The position numbers were made by a program, and so were the translations under genes. The notes under the pieces are model-generated. The model was given only the letters and a program-made list of their open reading frames with translations, did no database searches and was not told the DNA's origin. A stretch of DNA of 56,291 nucleotides from Candidatus Daviesbacteria bacterium (GTDB lineage Bacteria > Patescibacteriota > Microgenomatia > Daviesbacterales > UBA10151). The first letter of the stretch is position 1. Each line of letters starts with the position of its first letter. The stretch spans positions 1 to 56,291 of the forward strand of contig JACPKP010000008.1 in assembly GCA_016186955.1 (NCBI GenBank), given 5' to 3'. Shown in pieces: positions 5,525 through 56,254 of this stretch.

Positions 5525-8500
5525 TTATGGCCCGCCGACTGTGTCAATGTTGGTGTTGGAATGGACATCGCCTCCTGTAGTTTGGATCCAATCTGCAACG
5601 CATGAGTTAGCATAACGGAACAATCTGGGAGCAGTCCAATCCAGTACCTTGTTGTTGTAATTTTCTGCCTGGAGCTCAAGTTTATACTTATAGCCGACCC
5701 CTCCAAAAGGCGGGTTATTTAAATCCCCTGTGCCGTTGAAAGTTTTTTCCCACAGGTTGGGGTAGGTTATGGGATCAGGTTGGCTGGCGGGGTATTCTGC
5801 GTTACTGCTGGTGGTAGAACAATCCGGGCTAGTGCATTGGCTCAGCCTGAAAGTTACAGATTTCACAAGAGACGCACTATCAGTTGCAGTGGCCTGGATA
5901 GGTTGGGGTGGGGTGGCAGGCCAAGTTAGAGGAGTAAAGCATTGGTCTGCTGAAAAAATAAAATTAAAGTCTGCAACAGGAGGGGTGTTATCACACCAGG
6001 GGGTTTTGTTAGTGCCATCGTTAGCATCTAAAGGTTGGTTAGTCACTACTGAATACCATTTTGACTGCGGGAGCTCACCATCTGTTGGGTTGTAAGGCGC
6101 CACGGTATACCCGTAAACAGTATTCCTGGCAACTGTTGTATCAGTCCAGGTTCTGGAAGCAAACTCTGCAGCATCAGTGGTATGCAAAACAGTTGTTGGT
6201 GCATCAGAGCGGTAGATCCGGTACTCAGTCGCAGCAGCGTTTTGGGTCCATGATAAATCTACCTTTGGTGTATCTCCCATGCAATTGGCTGTGGCTGTCA
6301 CAACCGGGTATGAACAGCTGGCAGCGGTGTTAAATACCCATCTTGAGAAGATATTGCCTGAGGGGCCGACTGAGCTGACCTGGTACCAGTATACCTGTCC
6401 CGGCACAGCGCCGGGGTCGGTATAAAGTATGGGGGATGAATTAACTGCACCATGGTAAAAAGCTGTAGCAGGGATAACCTCTGTAGTCCCGGCAGCCATC
6501 GTAGGCCTTTTCCACCGCAGCTGGATATGTGGAATATCTGTTGTCTGGTTAAAATAATATTCCACCCGGAAATCATAAGTTTTGCCTGCTATAAAATTGT
6601 CAGTAGGTGAAATCGTTACTGCGCAGTATGTCCCTGTACAATCTGTCATCCGTATTGCTTTGTATTTTTTACCGCCCAGTCCCATAAATATTGCTGCGCC
6701 GTCATTGGCCCAGACAGTAAATTGGTAAATCCCAGTTTCAGGGATTTTAATTTTACCGACCCAGCGCATACTGAAAGTATCGGTATTGATGAAAGGGTCA
6801 GCAGGGGTAATGGGTACGTAAGGTTCCGGTGAAGGGCGGATGGCGGTCCAGGGGGGTTGGGTATGGTCAATAGTGGCGTCAATCCTGCTCAAAGTCTGGG
6901 CGCTTAAGTTTTGGTTGTCAAAATACTTGCCCAGTGTGCCGGAAGGTATGGTCATGGGCAGGTTACTGGTATGGTAGAGAAATTGGGAGGCAGGGATAAT
7001 TTGAGCGGGTGTGCCTGCTAAAATCATGGAAGGCGTTTGCCAAGAAAATACCATGGAGGCATCCCCGGTGGTAAACGAGGTGGAAAGCTCCATCCTGTAA
7101 AGCTGGCCGGCTTCCAGGTCAATTGAATTTGTTGATGGTGTTGTTTCGGCGGTAGCAGTATTAGATTTATTAATGACTTGAGTGTCAGTATCTGTTGTGA
7201 TTATTAATTTAGCAGCAGCTTGGGTAGTGACATAAAATTTATATGTGCCTGTTTCATTAGGGGTTTTTAACATCCCGGTCCATTTAACAGAGAAATTATC
7301 AGCAGTGACCAGAGAATCAGACGGCGGGCTTGTCCCCCAGGTAAAGTTTAGGGGTTGTAACTCAAACCTGGAATTTACCGGTGCGCCGGCATCACCTTTT
7401 AGTTGGACCAAATCAGCATTGTCATAATACTGGGCATAAAACCCCTGGTTAAAGTTAATGTCTATTGTCCTGTAGAGGTTAGCTCTGGGGATTGCCTGTT
7501 TGGAAAGACTGGGGGAGCATGAGGCACAGGACCATGACATTTTAAAAGCGCCATCCCCTGCCGCGCCTCCGTTGAAATAATGTTTAATTTTGATGTCATA
7601 CATCTTGTCTTTAATTAAGTCATAATTACCCTGATCTTCTGTGAGCGCCCGGTTGCTCCCCCAATTCTCGATAATGCGGAATTCTTTGCGTGTATCTTCA
7701 GCAATACTTACGATCAACCCGTCTGAAGTAGTAAAATAAAAGGTAAAAGTACCGGTGGCCGGGGCTTTGACTTTCCCTGACCAGACTACGCTGTAATTGG
7801 TTGAGGAATTAATGGTGGGGTCAGGAGCCTGATTTGCCCAGTCTGAGAAATCAAAATCTGTTTTGGGTTGAGGAGGGTCGATCCTGAAAGTTGCCATTGG
7901 GGGTTGCAGGGTCAGATTGTCATAGTATGCCCCGAACAACCCGTCCCCATTGCCTGACCCATCGGTAAAGATTATTGGTTTGTTGGTTTCTGTAATAGGA
8001 TCGTTATTGGCAAGCTGCATATTGACCCCATTGCTAAAACCCGGGAAAAGGGCGGTTTTAGGAACAGGTGTCTTAACAGGGATACCCGGACCAGTCCAGC
8101 TGAGTGACATTGAGGCTGCCCCCTGGTAGCTCTGGTATTCCAGCCTGATGTTATAAAACTTACCCTGGGTCATGGAAATTGTGCCGGAGAATTCACCGGG
8201 TTGGTTCCATTTATCAATAACTATTTCATCATCGATATACAGGACTGCCCCTTTATCGCTTTGGGCATTGGTGTAAAAAGTAAAAGCGCCGGTTGAAGGA
8301 GCTTTAATCTTACCGATCCATTTTACGGAAAACGATTCAGGGGAGATTTTGGGGTCCGGTGTATCCAAGCCCCAATTAAAAGTAAAATCTGCACCGGGCG
8401 GGTCAATCCTGGTCATCATGGGATGGGTCAGGTCTTTTGAGTCAAAATACTGACCCAGCAGGCCTGTCCCATTTAAAGGCGTGCCGTTTAGGTCTGTCCG

Positions 8501-8920
8501 GAAGACATTGTAATAACTTAAATTGGCTGCAGGCTGCCATGATAGGGAGGCCGGGTCTCCTCCGATACAAGCTAGGAAACTGTTAGGGTCCGGCGGGGAA
8601 GCCGGTACCTTGCCGTTAGTTTCACCCTGGTCATTTACTGCAGTATCTGTAAGGGCATCGGCTGTGCCGGCATCTACAGCCACACCTGAAGACATATCTG
8701 GAGCTGCATCGAAGGAAAATCCGCCAAAAGACTCCATTATACTATCAACGAAGGAACCAATATCAGAGCCTCCACCAAAAGGATCAGTGCAACACCCCCC
8801 AAAACCTGTGCCCAAATCAGATGGTACCTCCTGTGTAAAGGCGGTTGGTGTAAAGTTAAAAAGCAAGGCTGCAGAGCAGGCAGTTATCAAAAATATTAAC
8901 AGGGTTTTCCTAAACATCAT
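5525..8920 (-). CDS. secreted four-PA14 / fibronectin-III surface protein
   Basis: 1131 aa. A hydrophobic signal peptide (residues 1-30) is followed by an Asp/Gly-rich linker. Four PA14-like modules follow (about 150-290, 325-480, 495-650, 665-830), each with a 'YFD/YYDN...RIDP...F.W' opening and 'GTFTFY...D' core; PA14 domains commonly bind carbohydrate. FN3-like segments follow (DLSWTQNAAATEYRIYRS) and then an Ig-like end. The C-terminus GDVHSNTNIDTVGGP matches the end of the protein at 10410-10895. ATG ATG starts at 8920; a GAAGG supplied by the repeat element at 8912-9026 lies just upstream. It is the last gene of module C after 9030-9482. Probably an extracellular adhesin or glycan-binding protein; anchoring mode not evident. 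Confidence 0.8.
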   Translation of the reverse strand: MMFRKTLLIFLITACSAALLFNFTPTAFTQEVPSDLGTGFGGCCTDPFGGGSDIGSFVDSIMESFGGFSFDAAPDMSSGVAVDAGTADALTDTAVNDQGETNGKVPASPPDPNSFLACIGGDPASLSWQPAANLSYYNVFRTDLNGTPLNGTGLLGQYFDSKDLTHPMMTRIDPPGADFTFNWGLDTPDPKISPESFSVKWIGKIKAPSTGAFTFYTNAQSDKGAVLYIDDEIVIDKWNQPGEFSGTISMTQGKFYNIRLEYQSYQGAASMSLSWTGPGIPVKTPVPKTALFPGFSNGVNMQLANNDPITETNKPIIFTDGSGNGDGLFGAYYDNLTLQPPMATFRIDPPQPKTDFDFSDWANQAPDPTINSSTNYSVVWSGKVKAPATGTFTFYFTTSDGLIVSIAEDTRKEFRIIENWGSNRALTEDQGNYDLIKDKMYDIKIKHYFNGGAAGDGAFKMSWSCASCSPSLSKQAIPRANLYRTIDINFNQGFYAQYYDNADLVQLKGDAGAPVNSRFELQPLNFTWGTSPPSDSLVTADNFSVKWTGMLKTPNETGTYKFYVTTQAAAKLIITTDTDTQVINKSNTATAETTPSTNSIDLEAGQLYRMELSTSFTTGDASMVFSWQTPSMILAGTPAQIIPASQFLYHTSNLPMTIPSGTLGKYFDNQNLSAQTLSRIDATIDHTQPPWTAIRPSPEPYVPITPADPFINTDTFSMRWVGKIKIPETGIYQFTVWANDGAAIFMGLGGKKYKAIRMTDCTGTYCAVTISPTDNFIAGKTYDFRVEYYFNQTTDIPHIQLRWKRPTMAAGTTEVIPATAFYHGAVNSSPILYTDPGAVPGQVYWYQVSSVGPSGNIFSRWVFNTAASCSYPVVTATANCMGDTPKVDLSWTQNAAATEYRIYRSDAPTTVLHTTDAAEFASRTWTDTTVARNTVYGYTVAPYNPTDGELPQSKWYSVVTNQPLDANDGTNKTPWCDNTPPVADFNFIFSADQCFTPLTWPATPPQPIQATATDSASLVKSVTFRLSQCTSPDCSTTSSNAEYPASQPDPITYPNLWEKTFNGTGDLNNPPFGGVGYKYKLELQAENYNNKVLDWTAPRLFRYANSCVADWIQTTGGDVHSNTNIDTVGGP

Positions 8921-38026: not shown

Positions 38027-39124
38027 ATGTTACGCGTCGCAATTAACGGTTTTGGCAGGATTGGCAGGAATGCATTTAAAGTAGCGCTGGAGGAACATCC
38101 CCAGGATCTTGAAATTGTTGCCATAAATGACCTTACTTCTCCTCAAGTTTTGGCCCATCTTTTAAAATACGACACAGCTTATGGCCAGTGGGGGAAAGAA
38201 GTCACCTTTGATGACCAAAATATCATTATAGAGAACCTGCCTCCCGTCCTGCCTGACGGCAGTCAGGGCCTGCCTGACGGCAGTCAGGGCAGGCAGGCAA
38301 AAATCCCTGTTTATGCCGAGAAGGAACCTGCCAAACTACCCTGGAGAAATTTGAACATTGACGTGGTGATAGAGTCTACAGGCAGGTTTACGGACGAGGA
38401 AGGGATGAAGCAGCATTTACTGGCGGGTGCAAAAAAAGTGATTTTGTCTGCGCCTGCCAAGGGAGGTACGATCGGCACTTTCCTGGTCGGGGTTAACAGT
38501 GAGGACTACAAGGGCGAAAACCTGATAAATAATGCCTCCTGCACCACTAATTGCATAGCCCCCGTGGCAGCCATTATACAGGCCAAATTCGGCATTAAAA
38601 AGGCGCTTATGACCACTATTCACTCTGTCACAGCAGAACAAAACCTGATAGACGGCCCTCCTCCCGGTGGTAAGTCAGATGACCTCCGTCGGGCTCGGGC
38701 TGCATATTCAAATATAATTCCTACCACCACTGGCGCGGCAATCTCAACAACTGAAGCAATCCCTGCCCTGAAGGGTTTGTTTGACGGCCGGGCAATCCGT
38801 GTCCCAACCATAGTTGGGTCAATTTCTGATTTTACATTCTTATTGGATCAAAAAGTAACAGTTGAGGTTGTAAACCAAGCGATTAAAGAAGCATGTGAAG
38901 AACCATTGTGGAAAGGTATAGTAGCCTGGACGGAGGAACCGTTTGTATCATCTGATATAGTTGGACGCAGTGAGTCGGCAATAGTGGACTTGAGTTTGAC
39001 TCAGGTTGTAGATGGTGATTTGCTGAAAATTTTTGCCTGGTATGACAATGAGTGGGGATATGCCAACAGGTTGGTAGAGCTGGTGATTAATATAGGCAAA
39101 ACACTACAACAAACTACCCCGTAG
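38027..39124 (+). CDS. gap: glyceraldehyde-3-phosphate dehydrogenase
   Basis: 365 aa. NAD-binding 'INGFGRIGRNAFK', active-site SCTTNC, and 'SVTAEQNLIDGP' and 'AWYDNEWGYANRLVEL' at the end. An insertion of about 20 residues (LPDGSQGLPDGSQGRQ) in the N-terminal domain is encoded by tandem palindromes (38249-38303), at a surface loop after 'IENLPP'. Otherwise complete. With PGK it gives the lower glycolytic steps. Confidence 0.95.
   Translation: MLRVAINGFGRIGRNAFKVALEEHPQDLEIVAINDLTSPQVLAHLLKYDTAYGQWGKEVTFDDQNIIIENLPPVLPDGSQGLPDGSQGRQAKIPVYAEKEPAKLPWRNLNIDVVIESTGRFTDEEGMKQHLLAGAKKVILSAPAKGGTIGTFLVGVNSEDYKGENLINNASCTTNCIAPVAAIIQAKFGIKKALMTTIHSVTAEQNLIDGPPPGGKSDDLRRARAAYSNIIPTTTGAAISTTEAIPALKGLFDGRAIRVPTIVGSISDFTFLLDQKVTVEVVNQAIKEACEEPLWKGIVAWTEEPFVSSDIVGRSESAIVDLSLTQVVDGDLLKIFAWYDNEWGYANRLVELVINIGKTLQQTTP
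38249..38303. repeat. tandem palindromic repeats inside gap
   Basis: Two copies of cctgcctgacggcagtcagg plus a half copy, in frame, total length a multiple of three. Same family as 13591 and 28650. Confidence 0.75.
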
Positions 39125-39896
39125 TTTATAAAAAGGGATATTAAGTAAAAAATTATAGAGAGTAAGTAAGGTAACCTATAATAGATTTTAATCATTTTTG
39201 AGTCTAAATTGGATGATTTTAATCTCCATAGGATATATTGTCCCCATATTTAAACACTATCCGCACCCCGGCTATATACCTACTGTACCGTACAATACAG
39301 GGTAAAGCCGCGGTATCCAGAGGTTACGCTTTTATACCGCCTCAGGTACTATTCTATAGGGTTTCCAATAAAATACATGTTTATTATCAGTATATGTAAA
39401 TATACCAGGAAAAGAGATAAACTAGAAGCTTATAAAAAATGAATTAAGTAGATTTTGATAACCTGTTATACTCTAAATCAATTAATTTACCTTCCATATC
39501 AGTATAATTGATAAAAATTTATAATAAATTGTAATTATTTTTGAGCACCTGATTTTAAAATTGGGAACTAGGTTAATATTATTTATAGGCTTAAATTTTA
39601 AGAAAAGTATATTTAAATTTTTTTATTCAAAAATAAAAAAGCTCAAAGACATTTATCTACTATAAGTTCTAAAATTAATTATAAAGCCGTCTGTTCCTTC
39701 AAATTTGAGGCTAAACAACATTAAACTCCCGAATTTTAGCATGTAAACATATATAATAATGAAATGTAAAATTTACTTAGAACATATATATCCTATAAAT
39801 ATATGATTAAATTGGTATAGAAGTCAAAAGAGTGCTTTTTAAAGCTATCTTATAGACTCTTGACAAAGTAGTTATCATTAATGTTAACATTTAAAT
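39125..39896. other. 772-bp AT-rich intergenic region
   Basis: No gene seen on either strand. It is very AT-rich except for a short GC-richer part (39255-39345) with the pseudo-palindrome 'accgcggtat'. At the right end TTGACA (39859-39864) with a -10 near 39883-39888 (ttaaca) precedes ATG 39897 by about 8 nt. The region marks the boundary between the gap gene and the exosortase locus. Confidence 0.6.
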
Positions 39897-42314
39897 ATGT
39901 ATAGGAAGTTGTCCAAGGAGCAAAAAAAGGCCCTTCTGGAAAGGATTAGGGCAGGGGAGAGATTATCAAAACTTGCAAGGGAAGCAAAAATTTCAAGAAC
40001 TATCATATATAAATGGTTAAGTAAAAAATCTTTATTCCCGCAATACCCTAAAGGTTCTGTACACCCAAGGAAAATACCTAAGTTTAAAGAAAAGGAGATT
40101 GTTAAGGCAGCTATAAAACATCCATCTCTATCAATTGCAGGGATCGCCCAAGCTACAAAATTAAGTACATATTTTGTCTGGCAGACCTTAAAAAGATACA
40201 GATTAAGCACAAAGGAGGATAAAAGAATTTATATAGAGAGAAATGGCAATAGCCTGGTGAAGGAGGTGCCGGTCAACGATAGGGTGATGATGTTAAGAAG
40301 ATTTGAAAATGGGGATAAAGTTACCCAAATCTGCAAGGATTTTAATGTTTCAAGGACCGTATTTTACAGATGGCTTAAAAGGTACCAGCAGTTGGAGGAA
40401 AAGAACACAGAATCTCTAGTGGGACTAAGGCCAAGAGGTGAAAGCCATTGGAGGTTTATCCCCGGCGCAGAAGATCTTGTTTTAAAGCTTGTTTTAAGCA
40501 ACCCAAAATATTCAGCGCACCAGATCAGCAGGAAGTTGGAGCAAACCAACGGGAAACCAATAATTTCAAGTTTTGGGGTGCATAAAATATTGAAAAAACA
40601 TAATTTGAATATATATGAAAAAAGATTAGTATATGCAAGAGGTAAACAACAGACAGCATTCCCATACCAGGAGGAGCCAGCGCCGGTAAAGCAGGTTTTT
40701 GGTTCTATCCCGGGTGTTTCTTCCAAGCCTCCTCCAAGGGCAGGCTATTTTTTTAATACCCGGTCGTTTTTGATTATCTTTGCAATCGCGTTTTTCTTCG
40801 CTGTTTTTACCATCCCATCCATTGCTTCAATAACTAAAGCTTCAAGCCTGGCGCCTAAATTAGGCATGATCCTTGCCTATGTTTCTTTAACTTTTGGTAT
40901 GGTGTTTTTTCTCTATTCGCTAAAGTATTACATATCAATAGCTTTGATTTTATTATTTTCACGAAAGACGCCTACGGAATTAGGGCTAAAACAGCCGATG
41001 GGTTTGACCGCTGATCTACATACAATTGATCTTGACAGGAAACCTTTCGTCTCAATCCACCTTGCTGTATATAATGAAAAGAGAGTTTTGGAAAAGTTAC
41101 TCACAGCAGCAACCGCCCAGGAGTATAAAAACTATGAAGTAATAGTTGTTGATGACTCAACAGATGGATCCAAGGATATAATAAAAAGTTTTTTAAAGAA
41201 AAGGAGGGGGGAGTTTGATGAAGCTAAAAATGATAATTATGAAATTTTCATCTCCGCACCTTTTTTTAAAAATGAACCAAAGATAACAGTCATTCACAGG
41301 TATAATAGGGCTGGTTTTAAAGGTGGGGCGCTGAATAAAGCCTTGAACGTAATGGATCCAAGGTCAGAGTATGTGGTAATTTTGGATGCAGACTTTATTC
41401 CCTATCCTGACACCATAATCCAGTTTTTAAAGTACTTTAAGCTGAGTGTAGGGAGCCTGGAATTAAACTGTCATCCCCGACCTGATCGGGGATCCATAAA
41501 TAATGTTCAAGTGATGGATTCCCGCTTTCGCGGGAATGACAGGGTATTGTCTTCTAACATCGCTGCCATCCCCGCCTACGCTGAAGCTTCGGCGGGCTAC
41601 TGCGGCTCCAATGTCGCTGCAGTGCAGGGTTACCAGTGGCATGTGCTCAACAAATCAGAAAATTGGATTACCAGGGGGGGTAAGGAGTGAGTATTCGGGG
41701 TCTTATGTTGTTGAAAGAGCTGCAGTCGAGTTGTATTCAGGATTAAAACAGATTGCAGGCTCAGTTTATATGATTAAAGCAGGTATCTTAAAAGAGATGG
41801 GTTGGGTACATCCATTACTGAAGATTTTGAGCTGACATTGAAGCTTTATGAGCAGGGTTATAAAGTTGCTTATACTCCATATATCCAGGCCCCTGCAGAG
41901 GCTGTCTCTACTATAAAGCGGTTGATACGCCAGAGGATGAGGTGGGCAGAAGGACACTCTTTCAATATAAAAAAGATGTTTACTAGGCTTATTTTCTCAC
42001 CAAATTTGACACCTGCTGAAAAATTTGAGCTGGCCTACCTTGCCCCGTACTATTTACAGTCTGGCCTGTTTATATTGGGTACATTCTCCTGGTTTTTATC
42101 CGAGGCAGTTTTTCAGTCAAACCTGCCTTTTTGGACAGCCGTTTGGGGTTGGTCACTGGTTTTGACTAACCTCTTTGCCCTGCCCCTGATGAACCTGGTG
42201 GGGCTTTTTTTGGAGGAAGCAGACGAGAGGGATTACCTTGGGCTTTTCTCATTTGTCGCCCTTTCATATATAATGGCGCCTTTCAGGGGTATGCTGCTGT
42301 TAAAGGGTTTTTAG
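39897..42314 (+). pseudogene. HTH-array / membrane GT2 glycosyltransferase, frame-disrupted, continuous with 42315-44476
   Basis: Frame 1 (39897-41690): transposase-like helix-turn-helix units at about residues 8-50, 65-100, 130-165 and 190-245, two membrane helices (about 280-305, 320-355), then a GT2 domain: 'VSIHLAVYNEKRVLEKLL', 'VIVVDDSTDGS', 'YVVILDADFIPYPD' (DxD). A repeat-coded insertion lies at about 525-565. Frame 2 (about 41690-41803): 'SEYSGSYVVERAAVELYSG'. Frame 3 to 42314: 'SITEDFELTLKLYEQGY', 'RQRMRWAEGH' (QxxRW) and further membrane helices. Each shift is one base in a G-run: G7 at 41673-41680 (G6 needed), GGG at 41803-41806 (one G short), GGGG at 42286-42289 (one G short). No DDE transposase domain. 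Confidence 0.75.
41468..41600. repeat. RPDRGS...RFRGNDR-type repeat inside the GT2 gene
   Basis: gtcatccccgacctgatcgg ... gcgggaatgac, as in 8912-9026, followed by a cgcctacgctgaagcttcgg part. It is translated in frame as about 45 residues, splitting the GT2 domain between DxD and QxxRW. Confidence 0.75.
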
Positions 42315-44476
42315 AAAAGCAGGAGGGGTCATGGTTCAGGACACCTAAAACAGGGAGAATCACAGACCAATTTAAGCCGAGTAGCCTATATAAATTAATA
42401 TTTGGTTGGTTTAAGCCTTCCCAAACATCAGAGACTGAGCCCGCTGTCGGTATCAACCAAACCTTAAGTTTAAGATCTTCTAATAATAGATTTAATCAAT
42501 TTGAAATTAGGCCTAAAAGATTAAGATGGATAGGAAATTTGGCACTAGTTATTTTATTAACTAGTACACTCCTTTTGACCAGTCTAGCTCCTTTGGTGCC
42601 CCACTCTAAACCAGTCTCTGCTTCAGAAAGAAAGTTTTTAGGAATAAATGCTGGAAATTTACATCAGGGTGATTTTTCTCCATCTAAAGCTGGTAGCGAG
42701 ATTAACAATCCAGTTACTGTGAGATTTGATTATGGGAGTAATAAAGTATTGGAATATATCTTTCATCCTGAGCAAAGGGTTAGGACTAAGTTTGATGGAA
42801 AAGAGATAGAAACCACTTTAGTCTCAGCAAACAACTTTGGCCAAGCAAATCCAAAGAGGGCCTTAAAGAAAAATGGTGAATATTTCTGGGATGATGTTTT
42901 TCCAAGAGTTGATCTTAACGTAACTGTTCAACGGGAAATTTTAAAAGAAGAGCTTATTTTTGAAAAATACCAATACTTTGAAAATATAACCTGGGAAGTA
43001 AGGGTTAATAATTTAGAAGTAGCTTTAAATGACAATCAGATCTACTTTGCTCCAGAAGAAGGAGGAGCGCCTTTATTTATTTGGAATAAACCTTATCTTT
43101 ATGAAAAAAATAATCCAGAAAAGAAAAATTATGGCGTGGAATATAAGATGGAAAAGAAAGCTTTTGGTTGGGAGGTTAAAAAAGTTTTAACAGAAGAAGG
43201 TAAAAAATGGTTTGCTGATCCTAAACGGGCTTTTCCTGTAGTTTTAGACCCTACGCAGACCACTTCAACAATTCAGACTGCTGTTTCCACAGCGGAATCA
43301 GATTATGGCCAACAACAAAGAAAAATTGTCTGGGCTAATGGAGCATTAAATGGTGATGCTTGGTATGCTGTCTATGAAGATGCAGGAGGAATATTTTACG
43401 AAAAATGTGTACCCTCTGTAGATGGATGTGAGACCGGGACAGATTGGACTGACAGAACTAATATTGGTGAATCAGGCGGTACAGCTGATACTGACAATAA
43501 TAATCCTTCAGTTTGGTGGGAAAGTGACCGGGCTAAAATGTGGGTAGTTTGGACTGATAATTCCCGCGATAATCTGCAATTTGTTGACATTGACGTTGAT
43601 GCTGCAGATCCAGGAACAGCAGGCACTTTATGCTCAGGAGCAGATCAGTCAAATCACAACCCTACTACTTGGCAAACAACTATCACGCTTGATTCATCGG
43701 ACACAATTTATGTGTCTTATGTTGATACCTCTACATCTACTGTCAATAATATGTACAGAATTGCCACAGGGGGGTGTACTTTTACTGCAATCCTTTCTGG
43801 TTCTGGAGTTGATGCATCTGACAATCCAATACTTCTTGCAACAGGCACCCAGACTTTGCATGCTATTTTTCAGGACGGAACAACAATCAGACATTCGGTT
43901 TATGTTAATGATGGTACACCAGCTTGGGATAGTGCAGATACTGACATTACAGGAGTTGCTGCTGATAATACCAGTACTAATTATTCAGCAGCTACTGATG
44001 GAACTGATGTGTGGCTGATTATAGACCAAGGTACTTCAGGCGTTGATTTATGGACTTGTGCGGCTTGTGCAGCAGGATCAACTTGGACAAATGCTGCTGA
44101 CCCCTGGAGTTCTCAAGGAACAGATATCACAGAGGTATCTTTAGCCTATGATAGTGGCACGGATGATATTATTGCACTTGCACTGCGGGGCAGTGGAGCA
44201 ACCGAGGAGGTAATAACCACTAGCACTGATACAACAACTATCTCCTGGACTACCGAGGTAAGCCTTGGCGTTTTTGGGGGAGGAGCATCGGGGCTTGAGG
44301 ATTTATCAGGTACGATGAGTGCAAACTCAGTTGAGGGAGTAGGTTTTGTTGTTGAGGATGCTACCAATTCAGAACTTGAATTTTCCACCTTGCCTGAAAA
44401 TTACTGGATTTTATTTTTGCTTACCCCTTTTTTACCAAAAGCTTTAAATAAATTAAGGAGAAAAGATGCCATTTAA
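42315..44476 (+). CDS. secreted region with LPEN C-terminal sorting signal (probable exosortase substrate)
   Basis: In the frame reached after the last G-run shift, 42290-42538 reads 'YAAVKGFLEKQEGSWFRTPK' (the usual end of such GT2 proteins) and runs without a stop into a membrane helix (GNLALVILLTSTLLLTSLAP; TTG 42539 is a possible separate start). About 600 residues follow of Asp/Thr/Ser-rich beta-type extracellular sequence with some Cys. The tail is LPEN, a 14-residue hydrophobic helix, then KALNKLRRKD: the tripartite layout of PEP-CTERM-like signals. The stop overlaps the exosortase start by 11 bp. Either a separate substrate or the C-terminal half of the GT2 fusion; I favour the fusion. 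Confidence 0.75.
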
Positions 44477-45056
44477 TCAAAAACAGACCTTTGTGTATAT
44501 CTTTTTAATATTAGTAATAGTGTTAATATTGGTACCCATTACTACTGTTTTTAACGATCTACTTACAAGAATAGTAATTAATTTAGATCTCTATAAATAT
44601 ATCCAGAATGTGATTATCCCTTGGGAAATTAGACTAATAGGAGTAATACTCTATCCCTTTGGTTTTAATCCTACTGTTGTGGGTGAGTATTTAGCTATAG
44701 GTAAAGGTAACCCTTTGCTTGTTGAGGTTGCCTGGAACTGTATTGGCTGGCAATCGTTACTCTTTTTTATTTTCACAGGATGGATTGGTTTACAGGGAGA
44801 TAAATATACCTTAGTTTCCAAGACCAAAGCCTGGATTATTGGGTTTTTAGGCACATTTTTAATCAATCTTTTCAGGATCACGCTGGTTGTTTTAATTGCA
44901 TCTTACTTTGGACAAAATGTAGGGAATATAATCCATGACCATGGTTCAATAATAGTTATTATAGCCTGGCTCTTTTTCTTCTGGTGGTTTGTATATTCAT
45001 TTGTTTTGGAAGAAAAAAAGAATCACTTAATTGACGCAAGTAATTATGGGTGTTAA
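44466..45056 (+). CDS. exosortase/archaeosortase family transpeptidase
   Basis: 196 aa with about 5-6 transmembrane helices. The family's catalytic triad is present: Cys92 in AWNCIGWQS, Arg137 in NLFRITLV, His157/159 in IIHDHGS. It should cleave the LPEN-type C-terminal signal of the preceding gene product and transfer it to a cell-surface acceptor. The length is short, as in archaeosortase-like or Gram-positive XrtG forms, where a GT2 neighbour is also known. The 11-bp overlap with the substrate gene argues for a dedicated pair. Confidence 0.88.
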   Translation: MPFNQKQTFVYIFLILVIVLILVPITTVFNDLLTRIVINLDLYKYIQNVIIPWEIRLIGVILYPFGFNPTVVGEYLAIGKGNPLLVEVAWNCIGWQSLLFFIFTGWIGLQGDKYTLVSKTKAWIIGFLGTFLINLFRITLVVLIASYFGQNVGNIIHDHGSIIVIIAWLFFFWWFVYSFVLEEKKNHLIDASNYGC

Positions 45057-45067
45057 TGTTAATTTAG

Positions 45068-46123
45068 ATGTTGAATAAATATAAAGATTTACGGGATAGG
45101 TACAAGATATTAACCTTGTTTCTGTTGGGGCTTGTTGTTATTAGCTCAATAAATCTAGTTTTAGCCTTAAGGAATGACCAAATCCAACGGGAATTGCTGC
45201 TTATCCAAACCCATAACCGCCAATTAGTTCAAGCCCGTTCGGGGGCACAAACAGTCAAACTTTTTCTAAAAGATTTAGAGATTCAACTTTTAACTTTAAG
45301 CCAGGTTCCAGATGTTGTTTTATTAGATGAACAAAAAACCAGAGAAAGGTTTGAAAATTTGATAGATCAAGCTGAAGACACACCGTTTATAGGTATAGGC
45401 AGTTTGGACAAGGATGGCAAAGCCAAAATTATTACTAATAGGGAAAGAATGTCTGTAGGGGAAGGGACTAATTTTTCAGAAAGAGAGTATTTTAAATGGG
45501 CTAAGGATCCTTTAAATAAAGGGAAGATATATATAACAAGCCCGTTTATATCTCAAGCCGGAATTAGTAAAGATAAAAATGTTTTAGCGCTTATAACGCC
45601 TGTTTATTATAATGATGAATTTAACGGTATTATTATATTTGCGGTTTTACTAAATGACTTTTCTGATAAATTTATTGAACCGCTGAGAATTTATCAAGCC
45701 GGACAGTCGGTTTTAATCCAACAGGATGGTTTAGTAATTGCCGGTGACGGTAAGTTATTAAATAAAAACATTTTTAATTATGTGCAAAACATCAATAAAA
45801 ATATTTTTTCTGAGGATGAAGGAGCAATCAATTGGGTTTTCCAATATCCGGAAGATGGCGCCAAAGAGCAAATTGTAACATTCAAAAGGATTAATATAGA
45901 TCACCAAAGCTGGACGTTATTTATTATAAACAATAAAGATATTATCAACTCTTATTTAGAACCATTGGTTGAAAAATATCCTGTATCTGCAAACAGTAAC
46001 TCAAGCTTGCTCGTTATCATTTTTGGCACGTTGTTTACCGGGTTTTTCTTTATCCTCATTGCACATAGATCGCATAGCCAAGGGTTCAAATCAGGTATGC
46101 AGAGAGAGAGAGAGAGTAAATAA
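45068..46123 (+). CDS. membrane dCache-type sensor without output domain
   Basis: 351 aa. Transmembrane helix 1 (about residues 17-37), an extracytoplasmic double-Cache region ('DTPFIGIGSLDKDGKAKII', 'NFSEREYFKWAKDP', 'VLALITPVYYNDEFNGIIIFAV'), and transmembrane helix 2 (about 305-330). The cytoplasmic tail is about 20 residues, with no kinase, GGDEF or MCP domain. It starts 11 bp after the exosortase gene, so likely cotranscribed. It may sense small ligands for the locus, signalling through a partner, or act as an extracellular binding module. Confidence 0.78.
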   Translation: MLNKYKDLRDRYKILTLFLLGLVVISSINLVLALRNDQIQRELLLIQTHNRQLVQARSGAQTVKLFLKDLEIQLLTLSQVPDVVLLDEQKTRERFENLIDQAEDTPFIGIGSLDKDGKAKIITNRERMSVGEGTNFSEREYFKWAKDPLNKGKIYITSPFISQAGISKDKNVLALITPVYYNDEFNGIIIFAVLLNDFSDKFIEPLRIYQAGQSVLIQQDGLVIAGDGKLLNKNIFNYVQNINKNIFSEDEGAINWVFQYPEDGAKEQIVTFKRINIDHQSWTLFIINNKDIINSYLEPLVEKYPVSANSNSSLLVIIFGTLFTGFFFILIAHRSHSQGFKSGMQRERESK

Positions 46124-52504: not shown

Positions 52505-52888
52505 CACTTCGACGCGCTTCGCTTGCTCAGTGCAAGCAGAAGTAAGGAGAAGCGCCTTGAGCGCAGTCCGAAGGGCTACCTTGTATTTAGGTAGGAATTT
52601 CTAAAAATTTGGAAGTTGCTACTTAGGTACAATCAAAGTCCTAGGGTTTGTACTTTGAAATGTGAATACGATTGTAACCGCCGTAGCTTTACGCGAAGGC
52701 GGTTAATGAAGGTCGCCGTTGTTTAGAACTATGGCGACCGAAGAAGGCCAAATTAAAAAATACTCAACATTAAGGCATACGGTGGATGCCTTGGTTGGAA
52801 GCACCGATGAAGGACGTACTAGGCTGCGATAAGCTGCGGTAAGCTGCCAAGAAGCTTTGACCCGCAGATTTCCGAATGGAGTAATCCA

Positions 52889-53038
52889 CTTGTGCATGGC
52901 ACAAGAATCTTAAATCGTAAATCTTAAAACGCAAAACTACATCTAAAATCTAAAAACTGTAAAAAGTTTAAAAAGATTTGAATTTTGACTTGTAGTTTTG
53001 ACATTTGAATTTTGACATTTGAGTTTCTTGCGCTGTGC
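52889..53038 (+). repeat. 23S intervening sequence IVS1
   Basis: About 150 nt between the H9-H10 flanks. The ends cttgtgc...gcac and cttgcgctgtgc pair or repeat; the interior is AT-rich. Near-identical to IVS3 (53612-53760). Confidence 0.75.
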
Positions 53039-53168
53039 ATGAGTAACTCACGTTGAATATATAGACGCGAGTAGGGTACGCGTTGAACTGAAACATCTAA
53101 GTAAGCGCAGGAAAAGAGAACAAAAGTTATTCCCCAAGTAGCGGCGAGCGAACAGGGAAAAGCCTAAA

Positions 53169-53330
53169 CTCGTGCTTCGCACGAGGAAATTCGAAATACG
53201 AATATCGAAGCTCGAAACAAATTTAAATGACAGAAATTCTGATGTTTTAGACATTTGAAAATTTGAATTTTGAACATTGTTTCGGATTTCGGATTTAGAT
53301 ATTCGGATTTTCTCACGCGGAGCGTGAGGG
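53169..53330 (+). repeat. 23S intervening sequence IVS2
   Basis: About 160 nt bounded by hairpins ctcgtgcttcgcacgag and ctcacgcggagcgtgag, with an interior of degenerate 'gaaatacgaatatcgaa / ttcggatttcgg' inverted repeats. No ORF. Confidence 0.65.
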
Positions 53331-53514
53331 TTGTGGGACCAGCATACGTGATCCGGTAAGGGTAGAAGAAGCCGCTGGAAAGCGGCGCCAAAGAGGGTGA
53401 AAGCCCTGTATTCGAAACTTAAACCGGCGCAGCTTGATTCCCGAGTAACTTGGGACACGTGTAATCCTGAGTGAATCCAGGTCGACCATTGACCTAAGGC
53501 TAAATATGCTTCCA

Positions 53515-53554
<40 letters not shown>

Positions 53555-53611
53555 AAGGGCGGAACGCCCAGTGAAATAGTCCCTGAAACCGTATGTTGAC
53601 AAGCCGTGAAA

Positions 53612-53760
53612 CTTGTGCATGGCACAGGAATCTTAAATCGTAGATCTTAAATCGCAAATCTGCAACGCAAATCTAAAAACTGAAAAAAGTTTAAAAGATT
53701 TAAATTTTGACTTGTAGTTTTGACATTTGAATTTTGACATTTGAGTTTCTTGCGCTGTGC
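53612..53760 (+). repeat. 23S intervening sequence IVS3 (helix 25 region)
   Basis: About 150 nt, about 90% identical to IVS1 over its whole length, in the place of the helix 25 tip (a known IVS site in other bacteria). Confidence 0.75.
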
Positions 53761-54680
53761 GCAAGGATTGCGTGCCTATTGAAGAATGAACCGGTGAGTT
53801 ATTCCAATCTGCAAGTCTAAGCGCCGTAAGGCGCAGAGGCGTAGTGAAAGCGAGCTCTAACTGAGCGTCCGCCAACCGGCGGAAGCAGATTGGTATAGAC
53901 CCGAAACCGAGTGAGCTAACCATGCCCAGGGTGAAGCTTCGCCGAAAGGCGAGTGGAGGCCCGAACCCGTATCTGTAGAAATAGGTTGGGATGAGGTGTG
54001 GTTAGGGGTGATATGCCAAACGAACTCGGAGATAGCTGGTTCTCCCCGAAATATATTTAGGTATAGCCCTGTGGATTGTTTGTGGGGGTAGAGCTCTGGA
54101 TGGTCCACCAAGCGCAAGTGAGGCGGACCAATCAAACTCCGAATACTTGTAAATGTAATGGGAGTCAGTCCGATCCGGCTAAGCGGAGCGGGCCTAAGGG
54201 AAACATCCCAGATCGACAGCTAAGGTCCCTAAATGAAACTTAAGTGTTAAAGGAAGTCATGATCCTTAGACAGCCAGGAAGTTGGCTTAGAAGCAGCCAT
54301 CTTTTAAAGAAAGCGTAACAGCTCGCTGGTCTATTTATGGGTTATGGCGCCGACAACGAATCGGGGCTCAAAGTTTCTACCGAAGCTTCGGATTTACGCG
54401 CAAGCGTAAGTGGTAGGGGAGCGTCCCGCCAGCAGTGAATGTAAACTGTAAAGTTTGCTGGAGCGGGCGGGAGTGAGAATGCCGGTATGAGTAACGTATC
54501 CCGATGAGAAATCGGGACACCGAATGCCCAAGGTTTCCGATCCAATGTTAATCAGGGTCGGGTTAGTCGGTCCTAAGGAGAGGCGTATAGCGTATCCGAT
54601 GGACAACAGGTTAAAAGTCCTGTACTTTTAGATATTCGTTTTAATTTAAGGGTGGACAGAATGGGAAAACTAGGCCAGGG

Positions 54681-54808
54681 TAGACGGTAGATGGTAGAGG
54701 ATAGAAGGTAGAGATTTGATAATAGAAAATAGAGGGTAGAATAGAATCTATCTTCGAATTTCTATCTTCAAAATACTATTTTCCATCTTCCATCATCTAT
54801 CGTCCAAT
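54681..54808 (+). repeat. 23S intervening sequence IVS4
   Basis: About 128 nt long inverted repeat of 'agacggtagatggtagagga' and its complement, in the helix 58-59 area (E. coli about 1500). Forms one long imperfect hairpin; no ORF. Confidence 0.65.
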
Positions 54809-55225
54809 CTTGGTTTAAATAACAAGCAAGTAATGATTGATAAATCCGTTGTTATGTTTATGCGAGTTATGAATACGTAAGTTAGCAATTTTCTGTTTTC
54901 AGGAAAAGACCCGTAAATAGAATATATAGAATCCGTACTACAAACCAACACAGGTGGGCGAGTTGAGTATACACAGGCGATCGAGAGAACTATCCTTAAG
55001 GAACTCGGCAACAAAAGCTGGACGTAAGTTAGCGAGATGTCCTTCCCGATAGCGCAAGCTTATCGGGGTACAACAAAAGACGCTGAGCGACTGTTTATCA
55101 AAAACACAGGTCCCTGCTAAATCGAAAGATGATGTATAGGGGCTGACACCTGCCCAGTGCCAGTAATTTAAAACTTCTTCTGACCTCCGATAGCGCAAGC
55201 TTATCGGAGTACGGCAGCAGTAACT

Positions 55226-55975
55226 ATGATACCTTTAGGTTGTTGTAGTTGATAAACTTGGCTATATGCTGGAATATCTGAGAATCTTGAGCTAGTTGAC
55301 ATTTGGGTTTAATTCGGTAATATTAGAATTAATGCCTAATTTAACTAAAAAAGCTTCAAGTGCAGACAATCAGCAGGAAAGTTTTCAAGAAGAGTGGTTA
55401 AACAAAATTCCACAAAAACTAGGTTTCTATCTAACTGGATTTGTTGATGGAGAAGGCAGTTTTAATGTCTCTCTAAGACAAAAACCAGATTATGTCATTA
55501 AATGGCAAGCAGTATTAAGTTTTAATGTTTCCCAAAGAGATATTACAAATTTAGTAACGTTAAAAGAAATTCTAGGTTGTGGGATTATCAAAAAACGTTT
55601 TGATGGAGTCTATTCATTAGACATTACAAAACCATCAAATATTGTTTTAAGGGTAATACCATTTTTTAGAAGATTCCCCTTTAGGTCAAAGAAAGCTATT
55701 AAAAACTTTGCAATTTTTTGCAAAATAGCCGATTTGATGCATAAAGGAAATCATAAACATATTGAAGGCTTAAAAGAAATTGTTTCTATCAGAGAAACCT
55801 TAAATATAGGTGCTGGTAGGACTAGAAAATATACAGAAGCTGATGTGCTTAAATCTCTTCTTGAGAAATCCTCAGAGACTATACGCCAAGATCCGATATA
55901 AATATCGGGTATGATATAGTCCGACCTGCATGGCGACATGCAGATTCCGTATCCAATCGGAACTTGTAACAAACG
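55226..55975 (+). mobile_element. group I intron 1 in 23S (after U1915), with LAGLIDADG ORF
   Basis: The 5' exon ends cagtaact; the internal guide ggttgttgt (55238-55246) pairs with it over 9 positions with U.G at the splice site. Core elements: P-like gctatatgctgg (55261-55272), R ctcagagactatacgc (55871-55886), S gatatagtcc (55913-55922). Ends in G 55975, as required. Confidence 0.85.
55332..55901 (+). CDS. LAGLIDADG homing endonuclease of intron 1
   Basis: 189 aa from ATG 55332 (a TTG at 55296 is less likely). Single LAGLIDADG motif 'GFYLTGFVDGEGSFNVSLRQ' near residue 40, so it would act as a homodimer. The C-terminal 'IFCKIADLMHKGNHKHIEGLKEIV' matches the family; the last codons overlap the R element of the intron. 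The frame is intact, so the intron may be mobile. Related to the dead ORF in the 16S intron. Confidence 0.9.
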   Translation: MPNLTKKASSADNQQESFQEEWLNKIPQKLGFYLTGFVDGEGSFNVSLRQKPDYVIKWQAVLSFNVSQRDITNLVTLKEILGCGIIKKRFDGVYSLDITKPSNIVLRVIPFFRRFPFRSKKAIKNFAIFCKIADLMHKGNHKHIEGLKEIVSIRETLNIGAGRTRKYTEADVLKSLLEKSSETIRQDPI

Positions 55976-55991
55976 TTAACTGTTCTATGGT

Positions 55992-56254
55992 AACTATCGT
56001 TGCCTTAGAAATGAAAAGTGTTTTAGAAATTCTGCTATATGCTGGAAAAACTCAGTATCCGACAGTAGTCCGACATAACGTCGGACTGACAATCTGATCG
56101 GTGGAGTAAATCAGCAGGGAAGAGTCCGATATTACATCGGACAACCCTCAGAGACTACACGCAGAACTCCGATAAATATCGGAGAAGATATAGTCCGATC
56201 TCTTTAGCGATAAAGAGGCTCTAGGTACTACTTACCTAGTAATAAAAAGATACG
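55992..56254 (+). mobile_element. group I intron 2 in 23S (site 1931), ORF-less
   Basis: 263 nt. The guide gccttagaa (56002-56010) pairs with exon ttctatggt at 8 of 9 positions with U.G at the site. P-like gctatatgctgg (56034-56045), R cctcagagactacacgc (56146-56162), S aagatatagtcc (56185-56196), terminal G 56254. Only 16 nt of exon separate it from intron 1. Confidence 0.85.

Follow-up and report, generated by a model that had tools for sequence, protein, structure and literature searches.

The window, by which we mean the whole stretch of 56,291 nucleotides analysed from a contig of a Candidatus Daviesbacteria genome, carries on its forward strand a large gene that is interrupted by three frame breaks and followed by an intact exosortase gene (Table 1). 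All of the frames that the initial annotation had described as abutting were present, and GT2 homology continued across each junction, with Pfam GT2 matches in the first and third pieces and alignment to an intact paralog from the same genome. The frame of codon usage changed near 41680, 41800, and 42290, which are the GT2 junctions, and the broken state of the gene was thereby confirmed by both homology and codon usage. The G-runs reported at the junctions (G7, GGG, and GGGG) were also all there, but only the G7 stood out, the locus containing 58 G-runs of 3 nt or longer. The initial annotation had overlooked an in-frame insert in the GT2 linker, the core of which gave 14 genomic matches, as well as the promoter element and the internal signal-peptide-like helix. 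In another part of the window, the GAPDH ORF (38027-39124) contains a perfect in-frame 21-nt tandem duplication at 38248-38289 that yields LPDGSQG twice, another repeat tolerated within a coding region.

Table 1. Features of the interrupted gene and the adjoining exosortase gene in the window
Feature	Position	Strand	Basis or remark
Conserved promoter/operator element, TTGACA-aagtag-TTATCA-ttaatgt-TAACAT	39860-39890	+	Ends 6 nt before ATG; family-wide element
ORF 1: HTH array (residues ~1-250), two TM helices (~291-355), N-terminal GT2 (386-597)	39897-41690	+	
In-frame insert, variable GT2 linker	about 41468-41620	+	Core 41468-41548 is a dispersed repeat
Frame break 1, G7	41674-41680	+	Codon usage, paralog alignment, G-run count
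GT2 middle piece in another frame (second half of ORF 41536-41835)	41683-41802	+	Codon usage, paralog alignment
Frame break 2, near GGG (~41804)	41800-41807	+	Codon usage, paralog alignment, G-run count
GT2 C-terminal piece: TED and QRMRW motifs, membrane helices	41802-42314	+	Pfam match, paralog alignment
Frame break 3, GGGG	42286-42289	+	Codon usage, open frame, paralog alignment, G-run count
Open frame: GT2 end with gating-loop-like WFRTPKTG (42332-42355), then surface region	42287-44476	+	
Internal signal-peptide-like segment, RPKRLRW-hydrophobic-VSA|SE	42509-42622	+	Sequence; family-wide test
Exosortase sorting signal: LPEN, TM helix, basic tail	44390-44473	+	
Exosortase, intact; conserved Cys, Arg, His	44466-45056	+	

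Intact homologs were found by a search of 57 genomes. In many Microgenomatia/CPR genomes, a single uninterrupted ORF encodes an HTH array, a BcsA-like GT2, a surface region, and a tail composed of xPE(N), a TM helix, and basic residues, in proteins of up to 3.6 kaa; open frames spanned 2873, 2177, 1466, 1160, and other numbers of codons, and on contig C6 the window's own genome encodes a 3654-aa paralog that has its own exosortase. These proteins bear out the architecture first read from the broken gene (transposase-type HTHs, a membrane GT2, a surface part, and a PE(N) tail, in most cases with an exosortase alongside), and they are fused rather than consistently divided into separate HTH-GT2 and LPEN genes, the finding that the initial annotation had said would speak against it. 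One Curtissbacteria copy is split, its HTH ORF and GT2 ORF overlapping by ATGA. Breaks or splits were seen in the relatives L041, L095, and L096.

The family was carried by 18 of the 280 genomes of the class, one of which (G017) encodes an HTH array with a surface region and without GT2. A scan of named genomes placed it in Daviesbacteria, Gottesmanbacteria, Woesebacteria, Curtissbacteria, Chisholmbacteria, and CPR3, and also found HTH-less GT2 proteins in Chloroflexi/Anaerolineae and Terraquivivens archaea. Several of these HTH-less proteins have a PEN tail and an exosortase as a neighbor. The HTH array is probably a CPR addition, because in Chloroflexi and Terraquivivens archaea the GT2-surface-PEN fusions lack it. 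In the Terraquivivens archaea L105, L106, and L109, such a fusion lies directly after an exosortase-like gene. A second architecture built on this HTH module, an HTH array followed by a TM segment and a large extracytoplasmic region with no GT2, was observed with the same promoter element at L042 (7048-14559) and L190 (1501-2970). A phage or plasmid origin was rejected, since the locus had no phage matches and its plasmid matches were to generic GT2s only.

Aside from its breaks, the window copy is as well conserved as working copies. Its pieces keep 187 of the 194 residues that are invariant among eight intact members, with one of the seven departures being the X placed at a junction, and they contain no in-frame stop; the intact members themselves depart from invariant columns 3 to 15 times in leave-one-out counts. 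Retention of these residues at the level of intact members thus points to a copy that was recently broken or misassembled, not one that is long dead, and recent inactivation and assembly error are both possible. That all three breaks are sequencing or assembly errors in a gene that is intact in the organism is plausible, although we lean against it. The lack of any other decay would be expected under such errors, as would the coincidence of one break with the G7, yet the breaks are crowded into ~620 bases while codon usage detected none elsewhere in the window (two flagged places were adjacent genes), a result for which we also rejected a generically high indel error. In addition, two of the breaks lie at a mere GGG or GGGG, and genes with a single break or split are found in further genomes. 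It is very improbable that the G-runs are phase-variable switches turning the synthase and surface protein on and off, a possibility raised by the initial annotation for which the G7 and the breaks in some relatives might speak, because runs as short as the GGG and GGGG of the other two junctions would not be expected to slip often, a gene with three independent switches would seldom have all of them on at once, and the L095 break is not located at a long G-run. Slippage at the G7 alone cannot account for three breaks. As sequenced, the window copy retains its promoter, HTH array, and exosortase but cannot yield a complete GT2.

The GT2 motifs (DD, DxD, TED, and QxxRW) and membrane helices of a processive GT2 were invariant in the intact members and present in the window pieces. 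An AF2 model in which the HTH and catalytic parts were confident and the membrane and surface parts weak (mean pLDDT, 58) adjoined BcsA and hyaluronan synthases as the nearest solved structures in Foldseek. The family resembles BcsA, PgaC, and hyaluronan synthase in its DDS, DAD, TED, and QxxRW motifs, its gating-loop-like WFRTPKTG, and its fold, but it adds the N-terminal HTH array as well as a signal-peptide-like helix and surface region, and it scored far below the cut-offs for cellulose synthase (CelA; 82 of 699 bits) and PgaC (91 of 422 bits). Scores were likewise far below the cut-offs for the XrtG-associated (TIGR03111; 29-31 of 364 bits) and XrtP-associated (NF053846; 39-56 of 520 bits) glycosyltransferases. 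These share with the family local similarity and the pairing of a GT2 synthase with an exosortase, whereas their models (440 positions) contain neither an HTH array nor a fused substrate.

In all 28 fused proteins, including those without HTHs, the first helix after WFRTPKTG is preceded by a positively charged region (mean, +4.4) and followed by an AxA-like site, and such sites exceeded those of shuffled sequences, with 1 of 2000 shuffles reaching the count. This last helix before the surface region resembles an internal signal peptide, and signal peptidase would thus probably release the surface part. With a signal-peptide-like helix at one end and a PE(N)-TM-basic tail at the other, the sequence suggests that the surface region is cut at both ends. 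The initial picture of one mature chain was accordingly not supported, as the signal-peptide-like segment predicts cleavage.

The window exosortase exceeded the cut-offs of both TIGR04178 (40.2 bits; cut-off, 23) and PF09721 (30.3 bits; cut-off, 25.7), and an alignment of seven exosortases placed the conserved Cys, Arg, and His in WNC.GWQ, N..R, and HD/HN. The LPEN tail is of the PEP-CTERM type, with P and E invariant in 14 tails. A TIGR04178 exosortase was present in 14 of the 18 carrier genomes versus 5 of the other 262, and none was found in the searched assemblies of the carrier G017 or of G027. The window's own genome has two exosortases and two PEN signals, both signals being on the two family genes; family genes, exosortases, and sorting signals thus match one to one. 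Strong sorting signals numbered one each in G035, G042, G054, and G287 and more in G038 and G079. Directly downstream of the window exosortase lies a gene for a 351-aa membrane protein (45068-46123) with weak PDC-sensor similarity.

The closest described system is PEP-CTERM/EpsH (Haft et al. 2006, PMC1569441), for which the median number of substrates in a genome is reported as eight; those substrates have N-terminal signal peptides and hardly any further TM segments, and the element is of the sigma-54 type. The two have in common the C-terminal PE motif, TM helix, and basic tail, the exosortase Cys, Arg, and His, a link to polysaccharide synthesis, and a conserved DNA element upstream of substrates. 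The present family differs in that an exosortase usually has a single substrate, which follows a membrane GT2 in the same protein, and in that the element is of the TTGACA type.

Profile searches resolved the HTH array into HTH_23/HTH_32 and the N-terminal part of the IS481/IS630 models. Its resemblance to these transposases consists of the order HTH_23 plus HTH_32 and a match to profile positions ~2-120; unlike them, the family has no catalytic domain, is fused to a membrane protein, and falls below the cut-off, the N-terminal HTH part alone matching with 82.7 of 224 bits.

Upstream regions of family genes are long and mostly A+T-rich. A repeat search of these regions revealed no array of binding sites; word enrichment and reading of the upstream regions then showed an element of ~30 bp, TTGACA-N-TACCCA (or TTATCA)-N-TAACAT. 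It scored above the 99% null level (14.3, from random stretches of the same loci) in 30 of 36 upstream regions, with weights trained on those same genes. Out-of-sample support comes from G017 and from four genes that were not used for training (L187, L190, L194, and L198), which scored 20.0-29.4. The 14 carrier genomes gave 25 pattern hits, 17 of them by our count directly upstream of family genes, compared with 12 in total for the reversed pattern, and 14 noncarrier genomes gave 5 hits versus 5 in the control. Away from the family genes and other HTH-array genes, the element is almost absent. The three hits in the window's own genome are the window gene, its paralog, and one other, and there is in general about one site per family gene within a genome. 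HTH-TM-surface genes without GT2 (G017 and G196) carry the element, whereas 6 of 7 HTH-less homologs scored below the 95% null level, the seventh (L101; 15.7) lying just above the 99% level.

With domain borders taken from HMMs, distances between elements (TTGACA omitted) correlated with HTH distances (r = 0.50; 0 of 3000 permutations) and not with GT2 distances (r = -0.19). Element variants therefore track HTH rather than GT2 divergence, although the element adjoins the HTH coding region and joint transfer could produce such a correlation. In the window and several relatives the element ends 6-7 nt before the start codon, a spacing that would be expected for leaderless transcripts. A palindromic operator was not adopted, as only some elements contain an inverted repeat and there is no general dyad.

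Given these observations, it is probable that the window carries, in damaged form, a conserved CPR cassette in which a self-regulating membrane polysaccharide synthase is fused to a surface protein and followed by a dedicated exosortase. The single-ORF architecture of relatives, the conserved motifs, the gene-specific element, the one-to-one counts, and the three breaks are established at the level of sequence; the case for autoregulation by the HTH array is circumstantial and draws on the conservation, specificity, and correlation of the element. In the proposed model, the N-terminal transposase-type array would bind the gene's own promoter element and control expression, perhaps by repression, since the -35/-10 region falls within the element; any feedback on the array by the membrane enzyme or the surface part is speculative. 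The GT2 domain, which resembles cellulose and hyaluronan synthases, would, judging from its fold and motifs, polymerize and export a glycan, and the helix behind it would serve as an internal signal peptide at which signal peptidase separates the surface region. By analogy with exosortase biology, the neighboring exosortase would then cut the C-terminal (V/L/I)PE(N) signal and link the surface protein either to the envelope or to the glycan. The fullest form of this model is tentative, and on it we come down just short of even: a single polyprotein of transposase-derived array, processive synthase, and surface protein that acts from the membrane to control its own promoter and matures via signal peptidase and a dedicated exosortase may couple envelope glycan synthesis directly to transcription.

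Alternatively, the HTH array may have ceased to bind DNA and become a protein-interaction or scaffold module, with the element serving some other regulator or a specialized sigma factor. Such a role could explain why array length varies and why divergence is greater in the arrays than in GT2 (mean distance, 0.70 versus 0.43), and it would fit an element without a general dyad. We nevertheless consider it unlikely, given that the recognition-helix residues (SR..F/Y..W) are nearly invariant among family HTHs and that the element accompanies the array even without GT2, is low at most HTH-less homologs, tracks HTH divergence, and occurs about as often as family genes do.

Returning to the autoregulatory model, trigger enzymes such as PutA are enzymes that carry DNA-binding domains. 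The family would be similar in joining a DNA-binding domain to an enzyme in one polypeptide, with autoregulation here suggested by sequence, but it differs in combining a membrane polymer synthase with an exosortase substrate. No published description of the HTH-GT2-surface-PE(N) architecture was found in the literature searched, which included few subscription papers and preprints. If the model is true, the regulator, polymer synthase, and substrate of an exosortase system reside in one gene, in bacteria whose poorly understood surfaces probably mediate host contact. The promoter element provides a simple prediction, namely that the HTH array binds it. Furthermore, the occurrence of GT2-surface-PEN fusions next to exosortases in both bacteria and archaea raises the hypothesis that the glycan of the fused synthase may be the acceptor for some exosortase products.

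Two other features of the window deserve mention. A 1131-aa protein encoded at 5525-8920 has four PA14 domain matches. At the far end, a group I intron match (55982-56217) lies 0.7 kb beyond a 23S rRNA match (52773-55325), an ORF occupies 55296-55901, and the 23S gene of the window is probably interrupted.
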